From Zingiber officinale (Eukaryota; Streptophyta; Magnoliopsida; Zingiberales; Zingiberaceae): a stretch of DNA of 64,000 nucleotides. A program made the position numbers and the translations under genes. The notes beneath the pieces were generated by a model that saw only the letters and a list, made by a program, of their open reading frames with translations, did no database searches and was not told the origin of the DNA. The stretch lies in NCBI RefSeq assembly GCF_018446385.1, contig NC_055996.1, positions 124,965,750 to 125,029,749 of the forward strand, given 5' to 3'. Each line of letters starts with the position of its first letter. Within the stretch, counting starts at the first letter, position 1. Positions 3,815 through 54,300 of the stretch are shown piece by piece.

Positions 3815-5042
3815 TATATGATCGAAAAGATGTTATAGGGGGGGTGAATAACATTTATCACTTTTTCTAAAATTAATAGTTAAAACAAATGCAGCGGAAA
3901 AGAGAAAGTAGAAAGAGCAAGTGTTAACACAAGTATTTTTTATTTGGTTCGGAGCCTTTGATGTTCTTACTCCAAGGCCAACACTCATTGAGTGCTTTCG
4001 TTGAGTAATCACTATAATATCGAAAAGATTACAAACAATTAAGTACAATATAGGAATAATAAAAGAATACCTACAACAAAAGGAAAGAAGCTTGGTTGTT
4101 GGTTATTGGAATAGCCTTTCGGTGTCGTAAGAGCCTTCTCAGAGAAGCGCGCAAGAACAAAAGTCAGAGCAGATGTTGTTTAGAAGTTACTGGTCGAAGG
4201 TCTTTTTATAGGCTATTTCCAGGCACCCGAACCACCCCCAGGCGCCTCCAATAGTGTCTGATCTGTTGTTGACTTATCCTCCTTCAGGCGCTCGGACCAC
4301 CCCTGGGCGCCTGGATTGCTGACGTGGTGACGCCTCGACAAAACTTTATCTCTGAAAATTTATCCTTCTCTCGGTGCTTGGATTGTGACATAGTTTGACC
4401 AATCAGCGTGTGCCACCTCATCTAGTCGCCTGCTGTTTCGCCTCCTTACCAGGGCGCCTGGACCCCCTACGGGTGCTTGGACTGTGTCCAAGCGCCTGGA
4501 GCCCCTTTTTCAGCTACATGATTTTCCTGCATCACAAGGTTAGCACAATAGACAATAATATGGAACAAAGAGTAATATTTGACAGTCTTCGAACTATCCA
4601 GTCTTGACTTTGAGTTTCGCTAAAACTCTAGGTCGGACCAACGCCTACAGTTTCCTCAACCGGAAATGCGTCCTCATTAGAGCTCTCCTCCAATTGCTTA
4701 CCTTTACTTACCATATGCAGTCACTTGACTCGCCTCTTGATCCACCAGGTCTTCTCGCTAGTTGTCAAGTCTACAGACTCAATTGGACTTTAGCCAGCTA
4801 TCAGGTCTTATAAACTCAATTGGACTTCCTACCAGATATCGGGTCACTCCTTGATCTATCTGGACTTCCCATCAACTATCAAGTCCAACAGACTTAGCTG
4901 GATTTCAACTTGGTGTTAGGTCCTCCAGACCCGTCAAGTCTTGCACACTTTGTTCAGAACATTAGATCACACAGAACCTAACTTTAACCATATATTATTC
5001 ATCAAAACGTAAGTTTAATCATTAGTACCAACTGCACTAACA
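3815..5042 (-). mobile_element. Solo LTR (family D) nested in the 3' LTR of element C
   Basis: On the + strand the block opens TATATGATCG with a G-run, the reverse complement of a typical LTR 3' end. It closes ACTGCACTAACA, the reverse complement of a TGTTAGTGCAGTTGG start. Perfect 5-bp target duplications CTAAG lie at 3810-3814 and 5043-5047, and family C LTR sequence resumes after them. The block is related to the LTR at 41854-43023 and shows worn versions of the same hairpin repeats near 4740-4930. Confidence 0.8.
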
Positions 5043-15630: not shown

Positions 15631-17137
15631 TGTATGATTGGTGCGGTTAGGAGAGAGAGAGGGGAGGGTGTAAATCTCAATTCGTTGCTTTCTTTTCATT
15701 TCATTGTGTGTTAGTTCTATCAGAGTAAGCATACAGCAGAATATATAAATAATATAATAAGACAGAAAGGTGAGATTTACTTGGTTCCTAACTCCCAGAG
15801 TCAATACATCCAAGCCCTAATCACGTGAGGCGCTCATCCACTAGTGATCTCCTTTCTGAAACTTTCTGGACACAGAGAAACCTGTTTTACAGTTTAGAGT
15901 ATAAGTACAAATAAGATATACAAATTAAGCGCAACTTATAAACAGAAAATTCAAACAAATTATTACGGCCGATTTAAAAGTCCTAAGCACAACACACCCT
16001 TCCTGGAGCTTTCCCGGTCACAGAGCTTCATAGCACGTTCATCTGAGCGCAGAGATAAAGAGTAGGATGAAGAATGAATTTCTTAAACGTAAAGCCTTTG
16101 TCTCTTTTTATAGAGTTGGATCAGATCTTTATCTAGATCAACTCTTATCTAAATGAAGTCATATTTAGATAAAGTCATATCTAGATCAAGATTTATCTGA
16201 ATCAAGTCTTATCTCTCTATCTATATCATCTGGCTTATCCTTATCCTCATCCAAATCATAAAAATAAACCAGATCTTTTGCCACATCATCTTCCATGTCA
16301 GCATTTCACAACTTAACAATTTGGACCAAACCCAGTTGATCTACCAAACCACTGGTTCGATCTACTAAATCAGTATAAGTCCAATTCGACCAGAGTCAAG
16401 TCTAGTTCACCTATTTACGTTTGTTTGCTCTCTGTTTTGCTTATAGCTCCAAGTTCTTATAAAACAATCATACAAAACAAAAACAAACAACCTAACCTAT
16501 ATTTGTAAGTCTATTTGACCTACTAGGGTTACCTTTTACTTAGAGGTTCATCCTCCAAGTCTATCACCTAAGGGTTAATCCCGTAGAATCAAGTCACACT
16601 TTTGTAAGTCTACCTAACTTACTAGGCTAACTTTTTTCTTGGATGTCCCTCCTCCAAGTCTACCACTTAAGGATTAATCCCTTAGGATCTGCACTCTTAT
16701 AAATCTACCCAATCTACTATGCTTCATGCTTGGAGTTCACTCCTCCAAGACTTCCCATTACCTAGAGTTACCTCTCCCTAGAGTTTTCTACTGTCTAACT
16801 TCACTCACTAGGGCTTTCATTACCTAACTTTACTCACTAGAGTCTAGTTTCATTACTAGAACTTCCACTATCTAGCGTCATTCACCAGGACTTCCACCAC
16901 TTAGCTTTACTTATTATGACCTAACTTCACTTACTAAGGCTTCCATTGCCTAGTTTTACTCATCAGGACTTTTCTTTGCCTAACCTTTAGTTATGACTTT
17001 TCCTTGCTAGTCATCTAGTACTGACTAGACTTCTCTCTTTCAAACATTAAGTCTTTTTTCGATCAACTCTTGGTCAAACTGACCAAACTTAGGTATATTA
17101 TCAAATATCAAAATCTTGAAAGCTTATTGCAGCAACA
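15631..17137 (-). mobile_element. Solo LTR, 1.5 kb, antisense
   Basis: The + strand block starts TGTATGATTGG with a G-rich run and ends TTGCAGCAACA. Perfect 5-bp duplications AAATG sit at 15626-15630 and 17138-17142. No gag or pol lies between. The right half (16540-17060) holds degenerate 20-25 bp repeats built from CTACTAGG/CTTCCACTA-like words. The clean target duplication makes the boundaries secure; the exact family is not recognised. Confidence 0.85.
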
Positions 17138-39292: not shown

Positions 39293-39410
39293 GAGAGTGT
39301 TGGTGCAGGATGCACCAGATGATCAAACCTATATTTTGATTATGGCAAAGGGTTCAAAGTTAAAGTTATTTGTTGTCTTACAAGTATGAATGAGCTTGTA
39401 GAAAAGTCAT

Positions 39411-40523
39411 TGTTGGTGCGGTTAGTACTAACGATTTAACCCAGGTTTTGATGAATGACAAATAGGTTAAGTTAGGTTTGTCGTTATCTAATGCTTTGAT
39501 CGAGTATGCAGGCTAAGTCCAGACAGGTCGACGGGCTGACCGGATGTCTGGCACGAAGTCCAAGTGGGTCGACGGGCTGACCGAACTCTTGGCGAGAAGT
39601 CCAGCTAGGTCGACGGGCTGACCAGATAGCTAGCACAAAGTCCAAGCGGGTCGACGGGCTGACCGGAGGCTTGGCACGAAGTCCAGCTAGGTCGACAGGC
39701 TAACCGGATAGCTGGCACAAAGTCCAGACGGGTCGAAGGGCTGACCGAACGTTTGGCAGGTAAGTAAAGGTAAGTCACTGGAGGAGACTGACTGTGAGGA
39801 CGCATCCCAGTTAAGGGACCGTAGGCGTCGGTCCAGTTTAGGTCTATTTTGGATCCCTAAATTGAGACCCTGACTAGGTTCTGGTCTCGGGAAGACAGGA
39901 CCTAACTCATAAATCTATATAAAATATCTATACATATATTTTTCTAACTCTATTTTGTAGATACAAATGTAGAACTTCAAATTCTGCACGCGTAGCAACT
40001 GACAGAGCTTGATTCCGAGTTCGGAGTCAAAAGTTATGACCTTCGGAAGATGACTGTGTCAAACAAGTAGTTGGAGACGACTCGGATCAGCCAGATTCGA
40101 ACTCTCCTCATCTGATCCAAATTTTTGGGATCTGATAAGCTCTGGAGACCCCTCCAAAGGGCTATAAAAGGAGGGGGTGAGCAAGCTTCAAGGACACAAC
40201 TCTTAGAACGAAGAATCTGCTTCCTTGTGCTCCTGCTGCGCTGCGATCTCCGACAAGCTTTTCCTTGCTGTTCTAAGTCTTTTTATTGTCGGTAATTTTT
40301 CCTTATTAGCAATATTGTACTTAACTTGTAATCTATATTTCGAATTGCTAGTGAATTGCCAAACGAAAGTACTCACGGAGTACGGGCCTTCGAGTAGGAG
40401 TCGTCACAGGCTCCGAACGAAGTAAATCCACTGTGTTCAATTTTCTTATTCCGCTGCGTTTATACTCATTGTTTTTCGAATCGATATTCACCCCCCCCTC
40501 TATCGACGTTTCACGATCCAACA
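39411..40523 (+). repeat. 5' LTR of the 8.3 kb element
   Basis: This 1113-bp LTR has six tandem 41-bp hairpin units at about 39518-39760. A TATA-like CTATAAAAGGAGG at about 40161 fits a core promoter. The 3' end is a C-run followed by CGACGTTTCACGATCCAACA. Confidence 0.9.
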
Positions 40524-40791
40524 AGTGGTATCAGAGCAGGTACCGCTCTGATTTGGTGCAACCACCAATCAGACAGGGGGAGAAACATTTCTTTTAATTT
40601 TTTTTCGGCTTTCAGTTTTTCACATAATTCCAAACTGATATTATTACCTTTTTGAAATTATTTTTTCGTAATTAAAACTAAGTTGGTGCAACACCGATTT
40701 AGCTCTTTTTCATTACTCTTCTTTCTTCCCGCACTGCTAATCCAAGACCAAGTCTTGACACCACTTTTTAGTTTTCCATCTTCAGCATTCA

Positions 40792-41106
40792 ATGACTCTT
40801 CTAGAAGGACGGAACCCTCACGAACCACCATCATACGATCAAGATTTCAACTACTGGAAGCGATTAATGGAATGCTTCTTAGGAAGCTTAGATTTCGATT
40901 ATGTGCTAATATTGAGAAAACCCTCTCAGGACTCGGAACTGAATAAAAATGTAAGTAAAATTATTTGTAGTGTTTTACCTAACAATGTTTTATGCAGACT
41001 AGAAAAGTGCAAGAATGCGTGTGAGCTTTGGGCCCAGTTGATCAAGCTTCACGAGAAGCCGTTGGAGTTAGACGATCAAGCCAAAATTGAATCCGAACTC
41101 GAGTAA
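40792..41106 (+). CDS. gag fragment of the 8.3 kb element
   Basis: An open stretch of 104 codons starts about 250 bp after the primer site. It contains NYWKRLMECFLGS and CELWAQLIKLHE, typical of the N-terminal (DUF4219/UBN2-like) part of plant copia gag. It is followed by low-complexity, AT-rich sequence rather than a capsid-nucleocapsid-pol continuation. This is a relic of an autonomous relative and is not expected to work alone. Confidence 0.65.
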   Translation: MTLLEGRNPHEPPSYDQDFNYWKRLMECFLGSLDFDYVLILRKPSQDSELNKNVSKIICSVLPNNVLCRLEKCKNACELWAQLIKLHEKPLELDDQAKIESELE

Positions 41107-41853
41107 GATCCAACGGAGAAGCCTGCTGAATTAGGGGTTGCGCTCAAGGTTAGTAATATTTACCAAAACACCCTTCTAGTAGTAGTTTAAAATATGTGTA
41201 TGTTAATTTGGATATGTCTGAAAGTATATGTGAAAATAATGTACATGACAATACTTGCAAAAATGCCCCTAGGATATTTTCTGATAAAACAAATATAATT
41301 AATTTAGAAAATACAGAAAATCTGAAAATAATTAATAAATCTAAAAATTCGAATTTAAACCTAAAAAAATTTGGAAATTTATCTAATAAATTCCACTAAT
41401 TATATCAACTTAAAAGGTAAAGAAAATATAAGGATAAACTCTAACACTCTGATAAAATCAAAAATAAATTTAACAAATTTAAAATTAAATGTTAAAGATA
41501 ACATATTAAACAAAGATAATCTGAAAAATTTAAAATTAACGGTTAATAAAAGATTAAAAGATAAATCTTTAAAGAAATATAATTTAATTAATTCAAATTT
41601 AAAAATTAATAAAAACTCAATTAACGATAATCCATTAAATAAAGACAATTCAATTAACTTAATAAAATTAAAATTGAAAGAAAATTTAAATATTAAATAC
41701 ACTCTCTTAAAAAAAGGATAATTTAACCAATTTAATTAATTCAAAATTAAAAACTTAAATCTAAATTACAAATTAAAACTAAAACAAAAAAATCTTAAAA
41801 GGAAAATCAATAATTTAGGGGGAGACTCCAGAATAGCTGGCACCTCCAAAACT

Positions 41854-43023
41854 TGTAGGACCGTGATCGTTCGATAGAGGGGGGGTGAATATCGATTCGA
41901 AAACTCGAGTGTAAAAGTACGCAGCGGAAAAGTAAATGAACACAATTGATTTTACTTCGTTCGGAGCCTGTGACGACTCCTACTTGAAGGCCCGTACTCC
42001 GTGAGTACTTTCGTTGGGCAATCACTATCAATTCGAATATTACAGAGTTAAGTACAAGAATTGACAGATAAAGAAAATACCGACAATAGAATTAAAACAA
42101 AACCAGCACTGAGTCGGAAAGCTTTTCGTGGCGTCGCAAGAGCACAGAGCAGCAGATCTTGGATTCTTAGTTCTTATTCAAGCTCTACCCTTGCCCCTTC
42201 TTTTATATGAAGCTCAAGGCGCCCCGGATCCCTTCCAGGCGCCCTGGTGAGACGTGGCAGGTCCAACCAGTGAGCTCCACGTGGCGACGCGCAATCGGGA
42301 TAAAACTTGCCTCCCGGGCGCCCGGATCCTTTCCGGGCGCCCGGATCCCCTCCGAGCGTCCGGACCACCTTTCTCCAGAACAGGTCCTTCTCCTGCAAGA
42401 CAAGGTTAGTCCGAGGCAAGTATAATAAATTTCCTGCAAAACAAAGTGTTACCACAGTTCATGAGTTTGACATGAAAAAGTATGACTTAGATTCCGTCTT
42501 TCCGAGACCGGAATCTAGTCACGATCTCGACTTAGATATCCGAAATGGATCTAAACCGGATCGACGCCTAATGTTCCCTTCCCGGGAACGCGTCCTCATA
42601 GTCACTCCCTTCCAGTGACTTACCTTTACTCACCTGCCAGACGTCCGGTCAGCCCTTCGACCCGTCTGGACTTCTCGCCAGCTATCCGGTCAGCCCATCG
42701 ACCTAGCTGGACTTCTCACCAAGCGTCCGGTCAGCCCGTCGACCCGCTTGGACTTCTCGCCAGCTATCCAGTCATCCCGTCGACCTAGCTGGACTTCTCG
42801 CCAAGCGCCCGGTCAGCCCGTCGACCCGCTTGGACTTTTCGCCAGCTATCCGGTCAGCCCGTCGACCTAGCTGGGCTTCGTGCCAGACATCCGGTCAGCC
42901 CGTCGACCTGTCTGGGCTTCTCCTGCACACTCGATCAAAGTGTTAGACAACAACAGACTAACTTAACCTGATTTGTCATTCATCAAAACCTGGGTTAAAT
43001 CGTTAGTGCTAACCGCACCAACA
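41854..43023 (-). mobile_element. Solo LTR nested in the 8.3 kb element
   Basis: This 1170-bp LTR lies antisense to its host. The + strand starts TGTAGGACCGTG and ends AACCGCACCAACA. Perfect target duplications AAACT lie at 41849-41853 and 43024-43028. It is related to the host's own LTR, sharing the hairpin units (42645-42918), the GTACTCACGGAGTACGG zone and the start TGTTGGTGCGGTTAGCAC, but is clearly a different subfamily. It has GGCGCC/GGGCGCCC clusters at 42215-42365. Confidence 0.9.
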
Positions 43024-43489
43024 AAACTAACTTACCCGACAGGGTAATAAATAACTACTGTACCTAGCAGGGTAATTAGGACTAGTTCAAAAGGGATAAT
43101 AGTTTAACTTGACCAATGGTACTGGTGAAGTCTTGGATGATAGTACGTTAGGGAAGCTTAGTCTATGCAGGTCTAGGAAGATATGGTTTCGACCTGGTGC
43201 ATTTGGCTAAGTGGAACTGACCGAAGCTACCCTTTATGGATCCTAACCAGTTAGACCAAGGTTTTGTACTAAGTCCAGTGGATAGGACTATTTGGAAAAT
43301 CTCGAAGGCATGGTTACTCTAATGATGTCCAAGTGACTCACTATAGCTCAGAAATTTATCCAAAGAATGCCTATTTATTAGATCCAAAGTTAAACCTGAA
43401 TCTAACACAAAGTTAAACCAAACCCTAAAATGGATTCTAATTAATCTCACAAAATAATAAGATTCCCTGATTGATAATTTAGATCAAGT

Positions 43490-44560
43490 GAGATGACTAA
43501 GGACTTAAAATTTAAATTTAAATTAAAATTAAGTTAAAATTAAAATTAAAATTATTTTAAAAATATTTTTAATAAAAAATTAGTTTTAAAAAAAAATTAA
43601 CTTAAAAGAAATTATTTTCTTTAAAAAAAATCATTTTACAAACCTTTTAAAAATCCTTTTAAAAACTATTTTAAAAATAATCTAAAAAATCCTTTTAAAA
43701 ATTATTTTTTTAAAAAAAAATCTTTTAAAAATTCTATTTGAAAAAAAAACTATTTAAAAAATTATTTTTTTAAAAAAAATTGTTTTAAAAACTATTTTAA
43801 AAATCCTTTTAAAAATTATTTTAAAATTATTTTTAAAATCCTTTTAAAAATTATTTTAAAATTATTTTAAAAATCCTTTTAAAAACTATTTTTTAAATTA
43901 ATTTAAAAAACTATTTTAAAAATACTTTTAAAAACTATTTTAATTTTTTTTTTTAAAATAAATTAAAAATCCTTTTAAAAACTATTTAAAAATTATTTTA
44001 AAAAACTTTTTTTTAAAAAAAACTATTTTAAAAATCCTTTTAAAAATTATTTTAAAAAATACTTTTAAAAATCCTTTCAAAAATTATTTTAAAAATAAAT
44101 TCTTTTAAAAATCATTTTAAAAACTCTTAAAAATTATTTTAAAAAACTCTTTTAAAATCATTTTTAAAAATTATTTAAAAATTATTTTAAAAACTCTTTT
44201 GAAATTATTGAAAAATTATTTTAAAACTCTTTTAAAAATCATCTTAAAAATTCTTTTAAAAATTATTTAAAAAATCTTTTAAAAATAATTTTAAAAATTA
44301 TTTTAAAACTTATTTTAAAAAACTCTTTTAAAAATTATTTTAAATTTTTTTAAAAAATCTCTTTTAAAAATCATTTAAAAATTATTTTAAAAATTATTTA
44401 AAAACCATTTAAAAATTCTTTTAAAAACCTTTTTAAAAATTATTTAAAATTTACTTTTAAACTCTTTCAAAAATCAGTTTTTTTAAAAAAGAAGTCTTTT
44501 AAAAAATAAATGTTTTATAAATCATTTTGAAAAATTCTTCTTAATATTATTTTTCACTTT
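43490..44560. repeat. About 1 kb degenerate TTTTAAAAA repeat
   Basis: Dozens of imperfect 10-20 bp units of the type TTTTAAAAATTATTTTAAAA, nearly free of G, lie in the internal region of the 8.3 kb element where pol would be expected. The units vary too much for a simple microsatellite. Confidence 0.8.
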
Positions 44561-45779
44561 AATAAAATTTTGTTAATTTAAAAAAAAATTATTCTTATTG
44601 ATTATTTAAACTTTAAAAATTATTATTTAGATTTTAAATTTTTTTTACCTTAAACATTATTTTAATCTTAAAATTATTTTTAAACTTAATTTAACCAAAC
44701 TTAAATTAAAACTTAAATTAAAACTTAATATTGAAATTACAATTAAAAATTAAAAATTTAACTTAAACTTAAAACTTAAAACTTAAACCTAAATTAATCA
44801 CTGATATTAATTTAAATCTAAAATCAAAACTGAATTGAACGTATGTTAATTGTCATTAAATAATTATAAAAATCATTTTAAAATCCTTTTAAACACTATT
44901 TTAGAAATCCGGTTAGAAATCCCTTAAAAATAATAATAATAATAATTCTTTTAAATTCATTTAAAACTTAGACACCTAACTTAAAAACTTAAATTCCGTT
45001 AACTTTAACTTTAAACTTAATTATGTAATTAATAAGTAGAACTTAACTGTTTAAGTTTAACTTCATTTGAGAACTAAAATTGACTTGAATTAAACCTTAC
45101 TTAACTGTGTCTAATAATTTTAACTTCATGCTAACTTCAAACTAAATTAATCCCACTTAAAAGGAAGTAAATAAAAAAAATAGTTATAACTAACACTTTC
45201 ATTGACCAACTCAATCAATTAATATGAAATTTAAATTATTTTATTAAGTATTAAATTATTAAATCATGTAAAAATTAATCAATAAATTATTAATAATGGC
45301 CAACTGTTTTTGATTTAATAAAGTTTATCTTATTAAACCTTAAACTGAAGCTTAAGCGCCTGAATCTAATATTAATTATTGATTAATCAAACTCAAATAA
45401 ACAATTATATCAAGGATACAGTGATAAATATGTAAATAATATAAGTGTTACCAAATCCCCTAGAACACTTAGATAGACAAATGTATTAGGGCTTGAAATT
45501 TAACACACTCAAACCTTAGCATTATATTAAGGGGGAGTAATAAATAAGGAGGATTAATAAATTAAAGGAGTATCAAATTCAGGGGGAGGTTTATTTTTTA
45601 ATTATCTCCTTAAGTGTTATTTTTTAATCTTCTCTTTAAAATCTCTCTAGAAAATTCTACCTCAATTTTTTTTTAAAAAAAAATTCTACTTTGAATATTT
45701 TTAGCAAATATTTTCAAAATTTTATGTCAGGTTCAGGGGGAGGAATTAATTAAAATTTTCCCTTTATTTAAAATATTTT

Positions 45780-46390
45780 AAAATTTGTGTTTGAAAAATG
45801 TTTTCTTAAAAATTTCTTAAACCTATTTTTGAAAACTAACTCTTATAAAACTAAGTTGTTTTTAAGAATTGAGTTTTACTTTTTATTGAAAATTGATTTT
45901 GAAAATTAGATTTAACTTAGTTTTGAAAATTGAATTTAAAAATCTAGTTCTTAAAATTTGATTTTACTTAATTTTGACAATTTGATTTGAAAGTTAAATT
46001 TTACAAAAATTAGTTTTAAAAATTACTTTGTTATTGAAAATTGTGGAAATTAGATTTTTCAAAACTTAAGTTTACAAACTAAGCTTCTCAAAATCATTTT
46101 CCTTAATTTTGAAAATTGAATTTTTTACAAACTTAGTGTTGAAAAATAAATTTCAATCAGTTTTAAAAAATAGATTTTTCAAACTTAGTTTTGGAATTTT
46201 GATTTTGAAAACTTATGTTTGAAAAGTGTTTCAAAGTTGAAACTTGTTTTGAAAATTTAAAACTTGATCTTGAAATTTAGAACTTATACACTTATGTTTG
46301 AAAATTAGACTATCTAAACTTAGCTATTTTTCTAAAAGCTAAAAGCTAATGCTTTAAACAAGTTTTCAAAAGTTTAAACTCCCCCAGATT
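45780..46390. repeat. Degenerate TTTGAAAATTGA repeat
   Basis: Imperfect units of about 12-25 bp based on GAAAATTGA/TTTTGAAAAT and CTTAGTTT occupy the 3' internal region of the 8.3 kb element, just before its polypurine tract. They are distinct in unit and base composition from the 43490-44560 array. Confidence 0.6.
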
Positions 46391-46619
46391 AACTTGACAT
46401 TATTTCTTACTTTGTCTGAAGTCTGTATTTATGCTTACTTAATCCATGCTTACTTTTGATGAATGTCAAAGGGGGAGGGTTAAGTGGTTAAGTTAGCTAA
46501 ACCAAACTGAAAATACAAACTAACTTAAAAATCACATAAATGCATGTTGTTACTTGTTTTTTCTTGCATATGTTTTCACTAACTTAACCAGGTTGTCATT
46601 CCATCAAAAAGGGGGAGAT

Positions 46620-47733
46620 TGTTGGTACGGTTAGCACTAACGATTTAACCCAGGTTTTGATGAATGACAAATAGGTTAAGTTAGGTTTGTCATTATCTAA
46701 TGCTTTGATCGAGTATGCAGGCTAAGTCCAGACAGGTCGACGGGCTGACCGGATGTCTGGCACGAAGTCCAAGCGGGTCGACGGGTTGACCGGATGCTTG
46801 GCGAGAAGTCCAGCTAGGTCGACGGGCTGACCAGATAGCTGGCACAAAGTCCAAGCCGGTCGATGGGCTGACCGGACGCTTGGCACAAAGTCCAGCTAGG
46901 TCGACGGGCTGACCGGATAGCTGGCACAAAGTCCAGACGGGTCGAAGGGCTGACCGAACGTCTGGCAGGTAAGTAAAGGTAAGTCACTGGAGGAGAGTGA
47001 CTGTGAGGACACATCCCAGTTAAGGGACAGTAGACGTCGATCCAGTTTAGGTCCATTTTGGATCCCTAAATTGAGATCCTGACTAGGTTCTGGTCTCGGG
47101 AAGACAGGACCTAACTCATAAATCTATATAAAATGTCTATACATATATTTTTCTAACTCTATTTTATAGATACAAATGTAGAGCTTCAAATTTTGCACGC
47201 GTAGCAACTGACAAAGCTTGATTCCGAGTTCGGAGTCAAAAGTTATGACCTTCGGAAGATGACTGTGTCAAACAAGTAGTTGGAGACGACTCGGATCAGC
47301 CAGATTCGAACTCTCCTCATCTAATCTGAATTTTTGGGATATGATAAGCTCTGGAGACCCCTCCAAAGGGCTATAAAAGGAGGGGGTGAGCAAGCTTCAA
47401 GGACACAATTCTCAGAATGAAGAATCTGCTTCCTTGTGCTCCTGCTGCGCTGCGATCTCCGACAAGCTTTTCCTTTCTGTTCTAAGTCTTTTTATTGTTG
47501 GTAATTTTTCCTTATTAGCAATATTGTACTTAACTTGTAATCTATATTTCGAATTTCTAGTGAATTGCCCAACAAAAGTACTCACGGAGTACGGGTCTTC
47601 GAGTAGGAGTCGTCACAGGCTCCAAACGAAGTAAATCCACTGTGTTCAATTTTCTTATTCCGTTGCGTTTATACACGTTGTTTTTCGAATCGATATTCAC
47701 CCCCCCCCTCTATCGACGTTTCACGATCCAACA
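46620..47733 (+). repeat. 3' LTR of the 8.3 kb element
   Basis: This 1114-bp LTR is about 96% identical to 39411-40523 and carries the six hairpin units at about 46727-46968, better preserved than in the 5' copy. Confidence 0.9.
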
Positions 47734-47779
47734 GTCCTAAGTGTTCTTAGGCAAAAGTTCTAGTAAATTCTAGACAGGT

Positions 47780-47946: not shown

Positions 47947-48197
47947 GAAGTCTTGGCAGGTCAGGCACTTTGGGCGAAATTCTAGAGTCGAGGACTTTAA
48001 GTGAAAATCCTGGTGGTCGCGGACCAGGTGAAAGTCTAGACGAGTCGTGGAGCGGACGTTTAGCATGAAGACCTGAAGTTTCGGACGCTGAACAAAAGTC
48101 TAGTCGGTCTAGAAGATCAGTCTGACAAAAGATAAACTCTCTTGAGAGGAGTAGGCGAGGACACGTTCCCCGTTGAGGGAACAGTAGACGTCGATTT

Positions 48198-49169
48198 TGT
48201 TGGAGCAATCCCAATGGTCCGTATGACCATGCATTTTGGTGTTTAAGCAAAGGTTTTAAGTTAGGTTTACTCTTGTTATTTGATATGTGTATGTGAGTGT
48301 GCAGATTTGCAGGATACACATATGACTTAGTTTGATGACTTTGGGTCCGGTGAAGGATGGAGCATCCGAGGGACCGTGGACAAGGCAGCAAAGATAAGGC
48401 CCGAGGGAAACGACTTCGAGGCATACGCGAAGGATGACATTGGGGACGAGCCATGAGCTTGGATGCATCCGAGAGATGAGAGCCAAAGGAAATATGCTTG
48501 AATGCAAGAGGTCAAGGCTGCAAAGAAGAGTCAAGTGAGTCGTGAGGGTACGAGTGCATGAGAGATTGTATTCAGGGAAAAATCCTGAGTGGTACTGTAG
48601 TAGTCAACGGGGGAACTGCAGCAGTCAACGGGTGTTGTAGCAGTCGACAGCACTGTAGCAGTCGACTGGTGTACTGTAGCAGTCGACTGGTAGAGAGCTG
48701 TTAGGCTGACACGAGTCGACTGGTGCAAGGACCAGTCGACTGGTAATGGTAAAATAGTATGACTATTTTCTTTCAAGCTCTATAAGGAGCTTGGGATGAC
48801 CGGCCAAGATGACGAAATTAGAGTTGGTTAAAGCCTAATTAGTAGTCACTAAATGCTTAAGGTTTCCCTTGTGTCCAAGTGTTTTTGGTGAGTGTTGTGG
48901 TGAAGTTTCTCCACCCATAAGGAGGTTTGAGTTAACCGGAGTTTCCGGGGACTAATCCATCGATAGATTGAGGGATCGTCCACCTTACAGACAGTCGTGG
49001 AATATGAGCCCTAATCTCTGAACCACGTTACATCGATGTGTTAGCGGTTTGCATTTCCTTTCTCATTGTATTTAACTTTTGTATTTCACTGTGCTAACAT
49101 TGTAGGAAGCAATCGATTTGGGGGCGCCGTCTATCCACCCCTCTTCTAACCGGTCACCGATCCCCTACA
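48198..49169 (+). mobile_element. Solo LTR inserted in the split LTR
   Basis: This 972-bp block starts TGTTGGAGCAATCCC and ends CCGATCCCCTACA. Perfect duplications GATTT lie at 48193-48197 and 49170-49174. It contains a run of AGTCGACTGGT palindromes (48595-48745) and a TATA-like CTCTATAAGGAG at about 48778. It has no internal region. Confidence 0.9.
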
Positions 49170-50094
49170 GATTTTACCTAGGGGTTTTGATGAAATTTGA
49201 AAATTAGAATTGGACAGTCTGATGACTATCAAAACAAATTTTACTTCACATGTTATATGTCTATTTTCTAATGCCTGTTTTGCAGGAGACTAATACTTTT
49301 GCTGGGTTAGGTTCAGCTTTGATCGGTCAACCAAACTTGAGATCAGTCAACCGAACCTCCAAGCAAACAGATTGGATTTTCAGCGAGCTGATTAGGTTCG
49401 ACCAAGGGATCGATCGACCGAACTTGGGGTTCAATCGACCGAACCTGGGGTTCAGTTAACCGAACCTGGGGTTCGGTCGACCGAACAGTGGATATGCATC
49501 GACGTGGTCTAGCAGAGTTGATCGGACTAAATGAGTTGGGGATCGGTCGACCGAACGAAGACTTTTATCCAAGCAGCAAAATCTGAACGGGAAGCCGAGC
49601 TGATTCAGGTAGGATTAGTCGACCGAACGATGGGATCGGTCAACTGATCAGCGACGAGTCAAATCTGATCCCGAGATCAGTGGATCTGGATAAGGTCTAG
49701 CTTGGCTATTTAAGGAGGGTTCGATCAGTTGCTTCGACAAAACACTTTCTAAGATCAAGAACGAACAACTGTTGTTCTACTTCGACAATCAACGAACGAC
49801 TTTTATTTCTATTATTGTCGATAACTTTATTATATTGCTGTTGTACTTCAAATTTGTAATCTTTGTTCGAACTATTAGTGATTGCCCACCGAAAGCGATC
49901 AATGATCGTGGGCCTTGGAGTAGGAGTCGTCATAGGCTCCAAACCAAATAAAAGAAACCTTGTCAGCATTGCTAGCTCCTCGTCTCTTTCTATCTTCCGC
50001 TACGTTATTCTGTGTTTTACGAAACTAGTGAAAAAGACACGAGTACTATTCACCCCCCTTTCTAGCACACATCGATCCTATAGAGAGTTGAGTG

Positions 50095-50580: not shown

Positions 50581-51339
50581 CTTTGGATACTATTTTATTT
50601 ACGTTCAAACTTCTATGAAATACTACCTATACTTATTAGTGACACACTTAAAATGAAATTCACTCTATCAAGCTCAAATCTAAATTTAATTAAAACATTC
50701 TCACTTGCATAAAAAATAATGAGTTCACCTGAAAAAAAATAAAAATAGATAAACTTTAACTACAAATTATCTAAGTGTGCTACTAATGAGTTAGGTAAGC
50801 TTTTAGAAAAGTTGGAGCATAAATAAGATGATATTCCAAGTATAAATAAGAGAAGGGGCCAAGAGGAAGAGGAGATTAAAGATTGTGGACTACGAATGCT
50901 CTCGGACACTGATGATTAAGGATTGATAAGCAAAAAAAAAAAAAAAAAATCGAAATAATTTTAATCAAATAAAAAATATTTTGAATGTAATAATTTTAAT
51001 TAAATTAAAAAATATTAAATAAATTTTATAGTAGTTATGTCTCTAGTAGTTATATATTCTACTAACTAGCGTATTTGTTGCGGACATGTTATAAACCCTA
51101 ATTTTCATCCCCCCAACAGAAGCAATTGTTCTTCTCGACGATCCGCGCATCGTTGATACTTGAATCCCATTGGCACGCCAATCAAATCTTCTTTCCGGCT
51201 AAACAAATAAGAACCCAAACCCTCATCTTTCACTTCACTCCCTTGTCTCCCTTCCCTTTCCTCGCTTCTCTCTTTCTTGTTCGAAGAGGAAAGACAAATT
51301 GAGGTCCAGGAGTAGGATTTAAGGCGAAAGAAAAGGGAT
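50581..51339 (+). promoter_or_regulatory. HDAC upstream region and 5' leader
   Basis: AT-rich DNA with an A-run at 50934-50949 gives way near 51100 to CT-rich leader-like sequence before the HDAC ATG. No clear TATA box is present, as often for housekeeping chromatin genes. Confidence 0.4.
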
Positions 51340-54300
51340 ATGGAGATCGGTGGCGGCAACTCCCTGCCGGGAATCGGTCCGGCGGCGAAGAAGCGGAAGG
51401 TGTGTTACTTTTACGACCCGGAGATCGGGAACTATTACTACGGGCAGGGGCATCCGATGAAGCCGCATCGGATGCGGATGACCCACGCGCTGCTCGCCCA
51501 GTACGGCCTCCTCGGCCACATGCAGGTGTACAAGCCCAACCCTGCCCGCGACCGCGACCTCTGCCGTTTCCACGCCGACGACTACGTCACCTTCCTACGC
51601 TCCGTCACCCCCGAGACTCAACAGGAGCAGATCCGCGCCCTCAAGCGCTTCAATGTCGGCGAGGACTGCCCCGTCTTCGACGGCCTTTACTCCTTTTGTC
51701 AGGCCTACGCGGGCGGCTCAGTTGGTGGCGCTGTCAAACTCAACCATGGGCACGACATTGCCATCAACTGGGCTGGCGGCCTTCACCATGCCAAAAAATG
51801 CGAGGCCTCAGGTTTCTGCTACGTTAATGACATCGTGCTAGCCATCCTCGAGCTCCTCAAGCGCCATGAGGTGCGTCCATTTTTTTTTTTTTTTTTGTAG
51901 GTTCCGAGGTTTTCTTTTCTTCGTTCTTATTTTTCGATCTCCATAATGGATTGTGGCTAATAATGTTAAGTTGTTAATACTCATGCTGTTATGACTAGAG
52001 GTTGCATCTGCTCCTATGTATTGCTTGTAGATTGGGAAGATCTTTCAACAATGAACATAGCGGTGGCAAAAATATAAATAGGTATTCATTAACACTTCAA
52101 TTCATACAGCTACAAGGAGGTAACTGAGGAACTTTGTTGCTCTCATAGGATGACATGCTAGGTCCTCAAGACAGATTGGGACTATTATGAGTTTCTTAGC
52201 TGCATTAGATTTAGAACTTACTTCTAGATATATTTTTCTTTATAATGATATTTCTTTGTGTTGTTAGAGCAATAACAGTTCCCTGATTCATATGCAAAGA
52301 TGGCTTTCGCCTTACAGATTGCTTTTTGAGTTGTTAAGCTTTAGTAGCATGCAGATATAAATTGATGGTCACCAAAATGTAACCATCATGACATTCATTC
52401 CTAGTTTTATTGAATCACCATTACAAGTGTCATCATGGAAGTTAGGATATTACTTTCCTTACTTTTTTCATGCAATGGTTTTATTATTCTAGGACATTTG
52501 TATACAATTTGGATGTATCACATATTGTGTAAAGTGAAATTATATACATGTCCCCACATAAATGGTATTTTAGGTTACTGAGAGTGAATAATATGAAGTT
52601 CTATTAGCATATCACCATGTTTTATATATATTTTTTTCGACTAACGCTATGTTTCAACTCAATGCTGACATGACTTCCTATTGGAACTCTATGCAAGGCC
52701 CGTGAAGATTTTTTCACTGTCTTATCGGATCTAAGAAAAATCAATCCTGAATCCAGTTTTTGTATCATGATCTTGTTATATTAAACTTAAATTTTGCTAG
52801 ATTTTTGAAGCTAACCTACAAGTTCTCTTTACATCTCTAAGATTCTTTTGCTTATTTACCTATTTTTAAAAGAAAATACTGCTGTTAAGATGCATGTTCT
52901 CTCATTTATCTGTATAGACACATACACACACAATGCACATATACAGAATTAGTTGTGTGCATGAATAAATTATAAACATATTTGCACAATCACATCAGTT
53001 CCATCAAAAGGTATATTTATTTCTTCCTCTGAGTTACCTTTGGAACTTAAAAAATACAGTAAACATGGCATCTATTGACCTGACTATTTTTGAACAGTTG
53101 ATCTTGTTCAAGCATACACTAATTGTTCCGTCTATTGACCTGCCTATTTTGATTTGATGAAAAATTGAATGTTGTTTGATGATTGTATATATATGTATCT
53201 AAATCCTCAGAAGTGGAATCTTAGGCTGCATTTATTTTGGACAATTTTCCTGGTTTCCTATATTATTTTATAATAAATTATTCTTTTATGTAAATGTGTA
53301 AAGGGTTGTAAACAAGCTAAGCCGAACCAAGCTTTGGGATGTTCAAGCTTGTTTGATAAGGTAACCGAGCTGAGCCTAAAATGAATCAAGGCATTGAAAT
53401 GATTGTTCAAGCTTGACTTGGTCTACTTTTTATGAGCTAGAGCTTAGTTTAAGCTTGGCTTGAGCTTGGTTCGTTTAGATGTTATCGAACTCTCAATTCA
53501 AGCTTGTTTGATTGTTTGAAACTTTTGTTTGTTTGATTGATTATTGAGCTTGTGTTAATTTTGAACTTGTTTGTTCATTTTAAAAATTTCTTTGTTTATT
53601 AAGTATATTGATAAGAGTTTTATTAATGAACATGGTTTGTGAAACGACTGTTGTTCATGAACATTAACGAGTTGAACATATATGTGTTCAAACTTATTTG
53701 TTTAGTTTAACGAGTTGTTCAATCATATTTATTTAATTGATCTTGTGTGTATTGAACGATTATAAATAAGCTCTTACCATGTCGAACACCTAGCTTGTTT
53801 ATGAACGTTTGGTTCATTTACAACCTTTATGTGTTTGATCATAATTTTTCAAAAAAAAAAATGAGTACAATCAAAATAATAAATAAGTAATTTTTTCTTT
53901 ACCTTTTTTGGGAGATCAATCATTCTTTTATAATAAATATTTCTTATTTTATATAGAGATGAAAAAGACTGTAACAAATATATCCCTTTTCACTTTTCAT
54001 TTTTTTGGATTTTAATTTTTATCTTGGGAAAGGAAAATTAGGAAAATTTTCTGGAAATAAACAGCCTTAGAATTTCCTGCAACGTCTCAAAATTTTGACC
54101 TAGAGAGAGCCTAATCGTTCACTTAACTATACTGCACTATTTCCATTCTTTGAGATTGATTTGACTGACTTAACAGTGGTCATTAGCTTGTTTCAGTGTT
54201 CTCCTAATGTCTGATATTTTTGTTGTTTGACCATAAATTTTTATGCACTCATCTACAGCGTGTATTATATGTGGACATTGATATTCACCATGGAGATGGT

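Follow-up and report, generated by a model that had tools for sequence, protein, structure and literature searches.

Long terminal repeats (LTRs) of a retrotransposon in the genome of ginger (Zingiber officinale) carry tandem hairpins whose arms differ from unit to unit yet remain complementary, which raises the question of what maintains the pairing. We analyzed a 64,000-nucleotide stretch of contig NC_055996.1 (positions 124,965,750 to 125,029,749), referred to here as the window. Our best explanation, put forward tentatively, is that the hairpin array and a downstream domain of four hairpins form a cis-acting folded region in the U3 of Sirevirus-type LTRs, functioning more likely as RNA. 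The positions of the features are listed in Table 1.

Bousios et al. (2010, PMC2829016) give as hallmarks of Sireviruses a polypurine tract (PPT) 10 bp before the 3′ LTR with an AT/TG junction, a primer-binding site (PBS) junction CA/A(T/G)TGG-TATCAGAGC, a poly-C run approximately 21 bp from the LTR end, multiple identical PPTs near the 3′ LTR, an inverted repeat flanking the PPT/LTR boundary, and a TATA box near the middle of the LTR. Judged by its sequence, the ginger element appears to possess every hallmark tested (PPT, multiple PPTs, inverted repeat, PBS, poly-C, and TATA). The PBS junction AGTGG-TATCAGAGC is located at 40524–40537, with AGTGGTATCAGAGC directly after ...CAACA. The PPT octamer occurs 14 times in the window: as the terminal tract, at 45530, 45581, 45735, and 46470, which puts five copies within the 1.1 kb that precede the 3′ LTR, at 40575 and 41817 inside the element, and seven times elsewhere. 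The inverted repeat, recognized by eye, is formed by CATTCCATCAAAA right before the PPT and TTTTGATGAATG within the LTR, with one gap. The 3′ and solo LTRs contain poly-C runs comparable to that of the 5′ LTR.

The two LTRs of the element (1113–1114 bp) are 95.9% identical, and the element is flanked by a 5-bp target duplication with one mismatch (GTCAT/GTCCT). By eye, it sits inside another LTR, which begins at 39298 and resumes at 47734 (the interrupted LTR). The element itself contains a nested solo LTR of a related subfamily. No Pfam match at E 0.01 was found for three frames of the gag region, and two pol frames of another copia element in the window had no match in 40524–46619. The element may therefore be non-autonomous or decayed and, as far as this one family of pol queries goes, its internal region may retain little besides cis-acting sequence. 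Part of the interior (43500–44800) is filled by a long AT-rich run of approximately 12-bp units of the AAAAATTATTTT type. A solo LTR-like insertion (by eye) at 48198–49169 within the interrupted LTR is flanked by an exact duplication, GATTT, and carries repeated AGTCGACT-type palindromes at about 48560–48745, with 15 perfect 6-bp stem starts versus 1.27 in shuffles. Elsewhere in the window, an open frame at 51316–51900 presumably resembles a plant histone deacetylase, as judged by eye.

Table 1 Positions of the LTRs, hairpin arrays, folded domains, and associated signals in the window.
Feature	Position	Strand	Details
5′ LTR, Sirevirus-type element	39411–40523	+	1113 bp; TG...CA ends
Hairpin array of 5′ LTR, 6 units of 41 bp	39515–39758	+	LTR positions 105–348 of 1113
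Folded U3 domain, four hairpins Ha–Hd, 5′ LTR	39759–39907	+	Consensus of three copies
Hb hairpin GACGC..TCCC/GGGA..GCGTC	39795–39832	+	Most widely shared part of the domain
Second TATA-like match CTATATAA	39915–39922	+	157 bp 3′ of array; LTR position 505/1113
TATA-like box CTATAAAA	40162–40169	+	404 bp 3′ of array; LTR position 752/1113
Poly-C run close to LTR end (Sirevirus integrase signal)	40491–40498	+	25 bp from end
Terminal PPT AGGGGGAG	46610–46617	+	Followed by AT/TG; LTR begins with TG at 46620
3′ LTR	46620–47733	+	
Hairpin array of 3′ LTR, 6 units	46724–46967	+	
Folded domain, 3′ LTR	46968–47116	+	
Nested solo LTR, related subfamily	41854–43023	-	Exact 5-bp target duplication AGTTT
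Hairpin array of solo LTR, 7 units	42643–42922	-	All 49 outer pairs Watson-Crick
Folded domain, solo LTR	42483–42634	-	
Eroded array, older LTR	4740–4945	-	Best unit 4828–4867, CCAGATA/TATCTGG; structure model 28.5 bits, E 2.6e-6; sequence-only model 10.8 bits, E 0.034
Hairpin unit CCAATTG/CAACTAG, older LTR	4754–4790	-	Two pairs non-standard
Domain counterpart, older LTR	4574–4676	-	Domain model 29.7 bits, E 3.4e-5
Hairpin unit CTAGTCA/TGACTAG, outer stem only	17003–17032	-	Structure model 22.1 bits, E 2.3e-4; not in sequence-only model at E up to 10
Hairpin unit CTTGGAG/CTCCAAG	16725–16753	-	Structure model 12.2 bits, E 0.21, not significant; perfect 7-bp stem
Hairpin unit CTAGACG/CGTTTAG (one G-U), interrupted LTR	48032–48067	+	Structure model 21.2 bits, E 4.1e-4; two inner pairs non-standard
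Hb-like hairpin GTTCCC/GGGAAC, interrupted LTR	48156–48195	+	Domain model 16.2 bits, E 0.044

The six units of about 41 bp that the original prediction placed in the 5′ LTR are present. Each unit is composed of AAGT (AAGC in two cases), a 7-nt arm, GGTC, GACGGGCT, GACC, three nucleotides (mostly GGA), a second 7-nt arm, and a 4-nt spacer. The unit folds into a 7-bp outer stem, a 4-bp GGTC/GACC inner stem, and an 8-nt loop, with a 3-nt asymmetric bulge on the 3′ side; the prediction described both stems but left out the bulge, which is present in 19/19 units of the three arrays. GGTC is found in 19/19 units and GACC in 17/19, and A precedes GGTC in 10/19, which therefore lack a 5′ CGG there. 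Set in a variable stem, the near-constant core GGTC GACGGGCT GACC resembles a recognition site displayed on a hairpin. The core GGTCGACGGGCTGACC, with up to three mismatches, has 19 matches in the window, all within the three arrays, where 0.03 are expected. The array period is 41 bp, and an 82-bp dimer scores higher. Kissing via a loop palindrome was dropped, as the 8-nt loop GACGGGCT contains no palindrome by eye, and an antisense open frame through the array (46693–46983) was set aside, as the 41-bp period is no multiple of three. The window has no Rfam match at the gathering score, and the array pattern has none in viral contigs, genome contigs, and plasmids, none of which is a collection of plant genomes.

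The 5′ arms of the 5′ LTR are, in order, CCAGACA, CCAAGTG, CCAGCTA, CCAAGCG, CCAGCTA, and CCAGACG; the second is CCAAGCG in the 3′ LTR. Three or four stem types occur among the 19 units, with CCAGACA first, CCAGACG last, and CCAGCTA and CCAAGCG alternating between them. The arrays of the two subfamilies have identical first and last stem types and differ in length by one middle unit, an additional CCAGCTA unit in the solo LTR. By stem type, the solo array reads P Q R Q R Q P′; because this order is mirror-symmetric, the array can also fold as a single long nested hairpin, which is the predicted minimum on both strands.

The outer stems contain Watson-Crick pairs at 38/42 positions in the 5′ LTR (plus one G-U and three mismatches) and at 40/42 in the 3′ LTR (plus one G-U and one mismatch), and are complete in the solo LTR. 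The inner stems are Watson-Crick at 23/24, 24/24, and 27/28 positions in the 5′, 3′, and solo LTRs, respectively. Altogether, 97.5% of the 198 paired cells of the 18 distinct units are standard pairs. The observations that the stems differ between units yet stay paired, that the 3′ LTR keeps the pairs better, and that the antisense solo LTR has the same arrangement are thus borne out. Sliding the partner columns by 1–3 positions lowers the pairing to 12–38%, and the covariation score of the array is 0.382 versus 0.165 in shuffles, none of 500 of which reach it. Four of the seven outer pairs have changed on both sides, one deviates only via an unpaired cell, and two are invariant.

Perfect 6-bp stems were counted in 15 stretches and compared with 200 dinucleotide shuffles each. 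Shuffles with counts as high numbered 5 for the 5′ array, 0 for the 3′ and solo arrays, 4 for the array of the old LTR, 8 for a second old stretch, and 11 for the interrupted LTR. The downstream stretches gave 22 (5′), 14 (3′), 0 (solo), and 91 (old LTR), and the stretches at 49330 (repeated motifs) and 48560 gave 15 and 0. One of the R/U5 controls also stands out (solo, 5), next to 69 for the 5′ LTR and 176 for the old LTR.

By themselves, the 19 units are weak evidence for paired change, because their stem types are linked, inherited, and common to units, and thus represent few independent events. Neighboring pairs within a stem type differ as a block, and neither doubly changed pairs (274/500 shuffles as high) nor further pair types (500/500) exceed the shuffles. 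These two results and the small number of stem types are what chance or mere duplication would produce, with the units being recent copies and the apparent covariation inherited from a few founders. This origin of the pairing is nevertheless highly improbable. It is already disfavored by the different paired stems of other LTRs and by compensated pairs at orthologous sites of the downstream domain. The notion of copies without independent paired changes, named in the original prediction as a refutation, largely fits the 19 units, with their linked types, but is disfavored beyond the array.

Units with other stems are present in older LTRs. A structure model of the 19 units, searched over the window, identified four further places at E < 0.001: 4828–4867 and 4754–4790 in the older LTR, 17003–17032, the surroundings of which resemble an old LTR by eye, and 48032–48067 in the interrupted LTR. 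Only 4828–4867 among them is listed by a sequence-only model searched over the window up to E 10; the contrast is only a guide, as the effective sequence numbers of the models are 6.81 (structure) and 14.03 (sequence-only) and the E-values are rough. The CCAGATA/TATCTGG stem of the older LTR is fully paired, as predicted, and the other units of this LTR contain mismatches. Inner stems are wholly or partly absent in three of the four places. The distant units alter pairs that have a single standard type in the 19 units, for example the second pair from C-G to T-A. AAGTC anchors start a fully paired 7-bp stem in 4/12 cases in the other arrays (the remaining 8 are without such a stem) versus 2/144 elsewhere (Fisher P 2.9e-4), and in a looser test 10/28 overlapping anchors were at p < 0.05; the three other arrays were picked after the structure-model matches, so these tests are not fully independent. 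One of the two pairing control anchors (42533) is located in the downstream domain of the solo LTR itself.

The 150-bp downstream domain adjoining the array does not figure in the original prediction. The RNAalifold energy of its three copies, compared with column-preserving shuffles, has z-scores of -5.50 on the sense and -6.31 on the antisense strand. The corresponding values are -2.87 and -4.86 for the array, -2.25 and -1.26 for the LTR head, -2.66 and -2.90 for the LTR middle (two copies only, which are non-homologous between the subfamilies), and -1.36 and +0.39 for the R/U5 control. Single copies of the domain fold with z-scores of -5.59 in the solo LTR (42465–42634), -2.41 in the 3′ LTR (46968–47134), -1.56 in the 5′ LTR, and -1.00 in the older LTR. 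A model of the domain matches the older LTR and, weakly, the interrupted LTR (48156–48231, forward strand), where the domain is judged on Hb alone and another insertion directly adjoins. Hb is free of non-standard pairs in the older LTR, where Hc has 4 among its 16 and deletions interrupt Hd. Two Hb pairs are missing from the interrupted LTR, as they are from the 3′ LTR, and the inner stem of Hb varies among LTRs by eye (TCCC/GGGA, GTTCCC/GGGAAC, TTTCC/GGAAA).

A comparison of the 3′ LTR with the solo LTR shows 13 substitutions at paired sites of the domain; four pairs are hit twice, where 0.82 are expected, and 4/4 remain Watson-Crick (P 0.001 for the number of double hits and 0.0008 for that of pairs kept). 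For the 5′ and solo LTRs there are 15 such substitutions, and five pairs are hit twice, where 1.28 are expected (P 0.0009 and 0.0002). Both tests use a structure derived from the same sequences, which favors the structure; the z-scores given above are free of this bias, as the shuffled alignments were refolded. Across the three copies, double changes occur at five pairs, which belong exclusively to Hc and Hd, and 2/500 shuffles are as high; Ha and Hb contain no such pair. Further pair types are not above the shuffles (500/500 as high). Paired changes as a sign of a fold, proposed originally for the array units, hence find support in the distant units and the compensated downstream pairs.

The pairing seems to be preserved only in the lineage that moves, and decays once a copy has inserted. 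Comparison of the 5′ and 3′ arrays reveals 13 differences, eight in stems and five outside. The eight stem differences touch six pairs; each leaves at least one of the two copies with a non-Watson-Crick pair, and compensation is seen in no case. Five of the six pairs are still Watson-Crick in the other LTR, and the pairing was therefore near complete at insertion; for the sixth, the other units suggest an intact initial state. The solo LTR, with its complete outer stems, is younger, since it is nested in the element. Some of the differences between the 5′ and 3′ LTRs may instead stem from exchange between elements, because the 3′ LTR has a few states in common with the interrupted LTR. One pair of the downstream domain (39831 and 39868) is G-C in the 5′ LTR and A-T in the 3′ and solo LTRs, owing either to chance, to exchange between elements, or to a paired change after insertion, which is not significant between the two LTRs of the element (P 0.11–0.24).

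Stems that are nearly intact at insertion and remain so only in the moving lineage, adjacent pairs that differ as a block, and the single apparent paired change could also result from structure-based copying. A reverse transcriptase or repair polymerase would switch templates in the hairpin and copy one arm from the other, generating perfect stems without selection; such quasi-palindrome mutation has been studied in yeast (PMC3820800). We consider this mechanism unlikely, as the 3-nt bulge is asymmetric in all 19 units and the four doubly changed pairs that distinguish the 3′ from the solo LTR all involve transitions reachable via G-U or A-C. Moreover, unrepaired wobbles persist between compensated pairs in both subfamilies, and stepwise compensation therefore fits better than the copying of tracts.

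Whether the fold acts as RNA or DNA is addressed by folding of each strand. On the sense strand, RNA of the whole array has a z-score of -3.49 in the 3′ LTR, -0.25 in the 5′ LTR (77/200 shuffles as good), -1.61 in the solo LTR (12/200), -0.66 in the older LTR (49/200), and -0.69 in the interrupted LTR (25/100). RNA folding, suggested in the original prediction as a check, thus singles out the 3′ array, but the other arrays are unremarkable on this strand. The antisense z-score is -4.75 for both the 3′ and solo arrays, and that of single-stranded DNA of the 3′ array is -3.77. Sense RNA, antisense RNA, and single-stranded DNA fold about equally well, without a clear strand preference. The sense array alignment (-2.87) is barely better than the LTR middle (-2.66), and the local hairpins compete with unit-unit pairing, several having near-zero probability in RNA. 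The downstream domain's two longest helices, which are predicted on the sense strand, have 84/84 cells paired on that strand; the seven non-Watson-Crick cells, in four pairs, are all G-U and none is A-C, which mildly favors sense RNA.

It is also conceivable, but rather doubtful, that the array regulates transcription as double-stranded DNA, with dyad-symmetric U3 boxes binding dimeric transcription factors and the pairing being mere dyad symmetry. The same has been proposed for the repeated motifs of Sireviruses (PMC2829016), and the position of the array in U3, upstream of both TATA-like boxes, its GC content of 0.61–0.64 versus 0.36 in the window, and the lack of a clear strand preference are in line with it. 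A fixed factor site would, however, retain its letters, whereas the arms change jointly yet stay complementary, and a simple dyad is interrupted by the 3-nt bulge and the 8-nt loop. The observed/expected CpG ratio of the array (0.96–1.02) is above that of the window (0.73) but not above that of the rest of the element (0.93–1.19), and the array thus has no CpG enrichment of its own. The G-U pairs within the long helices of the downstream domain also speak against a DNA site.

We tentatively infer that the fold acts mainly as RNA rather than as double-stranded DNA. In retroelements, the genomic RNA contains U3 solely at its 3′ end, directly after the polypurine tract. Folded U3 RNA at this site could have a part in packaging, stability, or the initial steps of reverse transcription. 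As long as the lineage transposes, selection would keep the fold, because a single stem change is either lost or compensated.

Small-RNA hotspots have been reported at the palindromes of maize Sirevirus LTRs (PMC10760457, PMC5311732), and a hairpin-rich U3 might chiefly template host small RNAs that silence the element, its structure being retained incidentally through another function. Inverted arms of 304 nt, 88% complementary, are provided by the antisense solo LTR together with the 3′ LTR. Such a role is very unlikely to explain the pairing. Stems of 7 + 4 bp are short for Dicer-like enzymes, and silencing would favor loss of the pairing, not its retention. Separately, an element transcript spanning the inverted arms (42575–42878 and 46724–47027) could form a long duplex and feed silencing.

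Palindromic repeats in LTRs are a published feature of Sireviruses (PMC2829016), which was missed in the original statement that the function is unknown. The repeated motifs (RM boxes) described in that paper have a CGG-CCG core, lie upstream of the TATA box, start 200–400 bp into the LTR, and number at least eight per element. The ginger array resembles them in being composed of GC-rich palindromic repeats in the upper half of the LTR, upstream of a TATA box, and in its GGTC/GACC half-sites, which are also found in Osr10 CGGTCTGACCG and Vitis CGGTCGACCG (PMC2829016). The array units differ from RM boxes in that they are longer, bipartite, and 41 bp in period, with a bulge, an 8-nt loop, and a stem that varies from unit to unit. 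Furthermore, the array has six copies per LTR (seven in the solo LTR), fewer than the minimum of eight for RM boxes, begins 105 bp from the LTR start, and is 157 or 404 bp from a TATA-like box, further than the average given in PMC2829016. RM-like palindromes are present in addition to the arrays: CCGGGCGCCCGG occurs twice in the solo LTR, and CGGTCGACCG, identical to the Vitis motif of PMC2829016, is found at 49474 and 49544 in the interrupted LTR. In both LTRs, these palindromes lie 3′ of the hairpin array. The array with its domain thus seems to be a second module, located upstream of the RM boxes and distinct from them.

The palindromes of maize Sirevirus LTRs (Bousios et al. 2016, as quoted in PMC5311732 and PMC10760457) are likewise clustered in a cis-region with predicted secondary structure, and the palindrome region of Sirevirus LTRs is highly variable in sequence (PMC5311732). 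In contrast to the ginger units, the quoted maize motif CACCGGACNNNGTCCGGTG has fixed arms (PMC5311732, PMC10760457). The word 'compensatory' is absent from PMC10760457, which leaves open why transposons such as Sireviruses keep palindromes that may draw small RNAs and conjectures a tug of war. The U3 repeats of Tnt1, a plant Copia-type retrotransposon, are also tandem or symmetric, but the passages on them in PMC2829016 and PMC3601003 treat them as transcription regulators and do not mention covarying stems. A literature search limited in scope, mostly to titles, yielded no paper recognizable by its title as dealing with paired change in plant LTRs. Palindrome arrays are thus already known in this group of elements; new here are this version of the array and its paired changes, although Bousios et al. 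(2016) may already describe paired changes.

A more specific form of the favored reading, which we regard as possible though doubtful, is that Sirevirus LTRs contain a conserved folded U3 RNA module distinct from the RM boxes, with stems that compensate across several LTR families, and that the module functions, as part of the genomic RNA, in packaging or reverse transcription. Sirevirus-type elements are abundant in some plant genomes, and the downstream domain is a compact, alignable object for testing. Covarying stems offer a direct way to separate selection on a fold from selection on a protein site.
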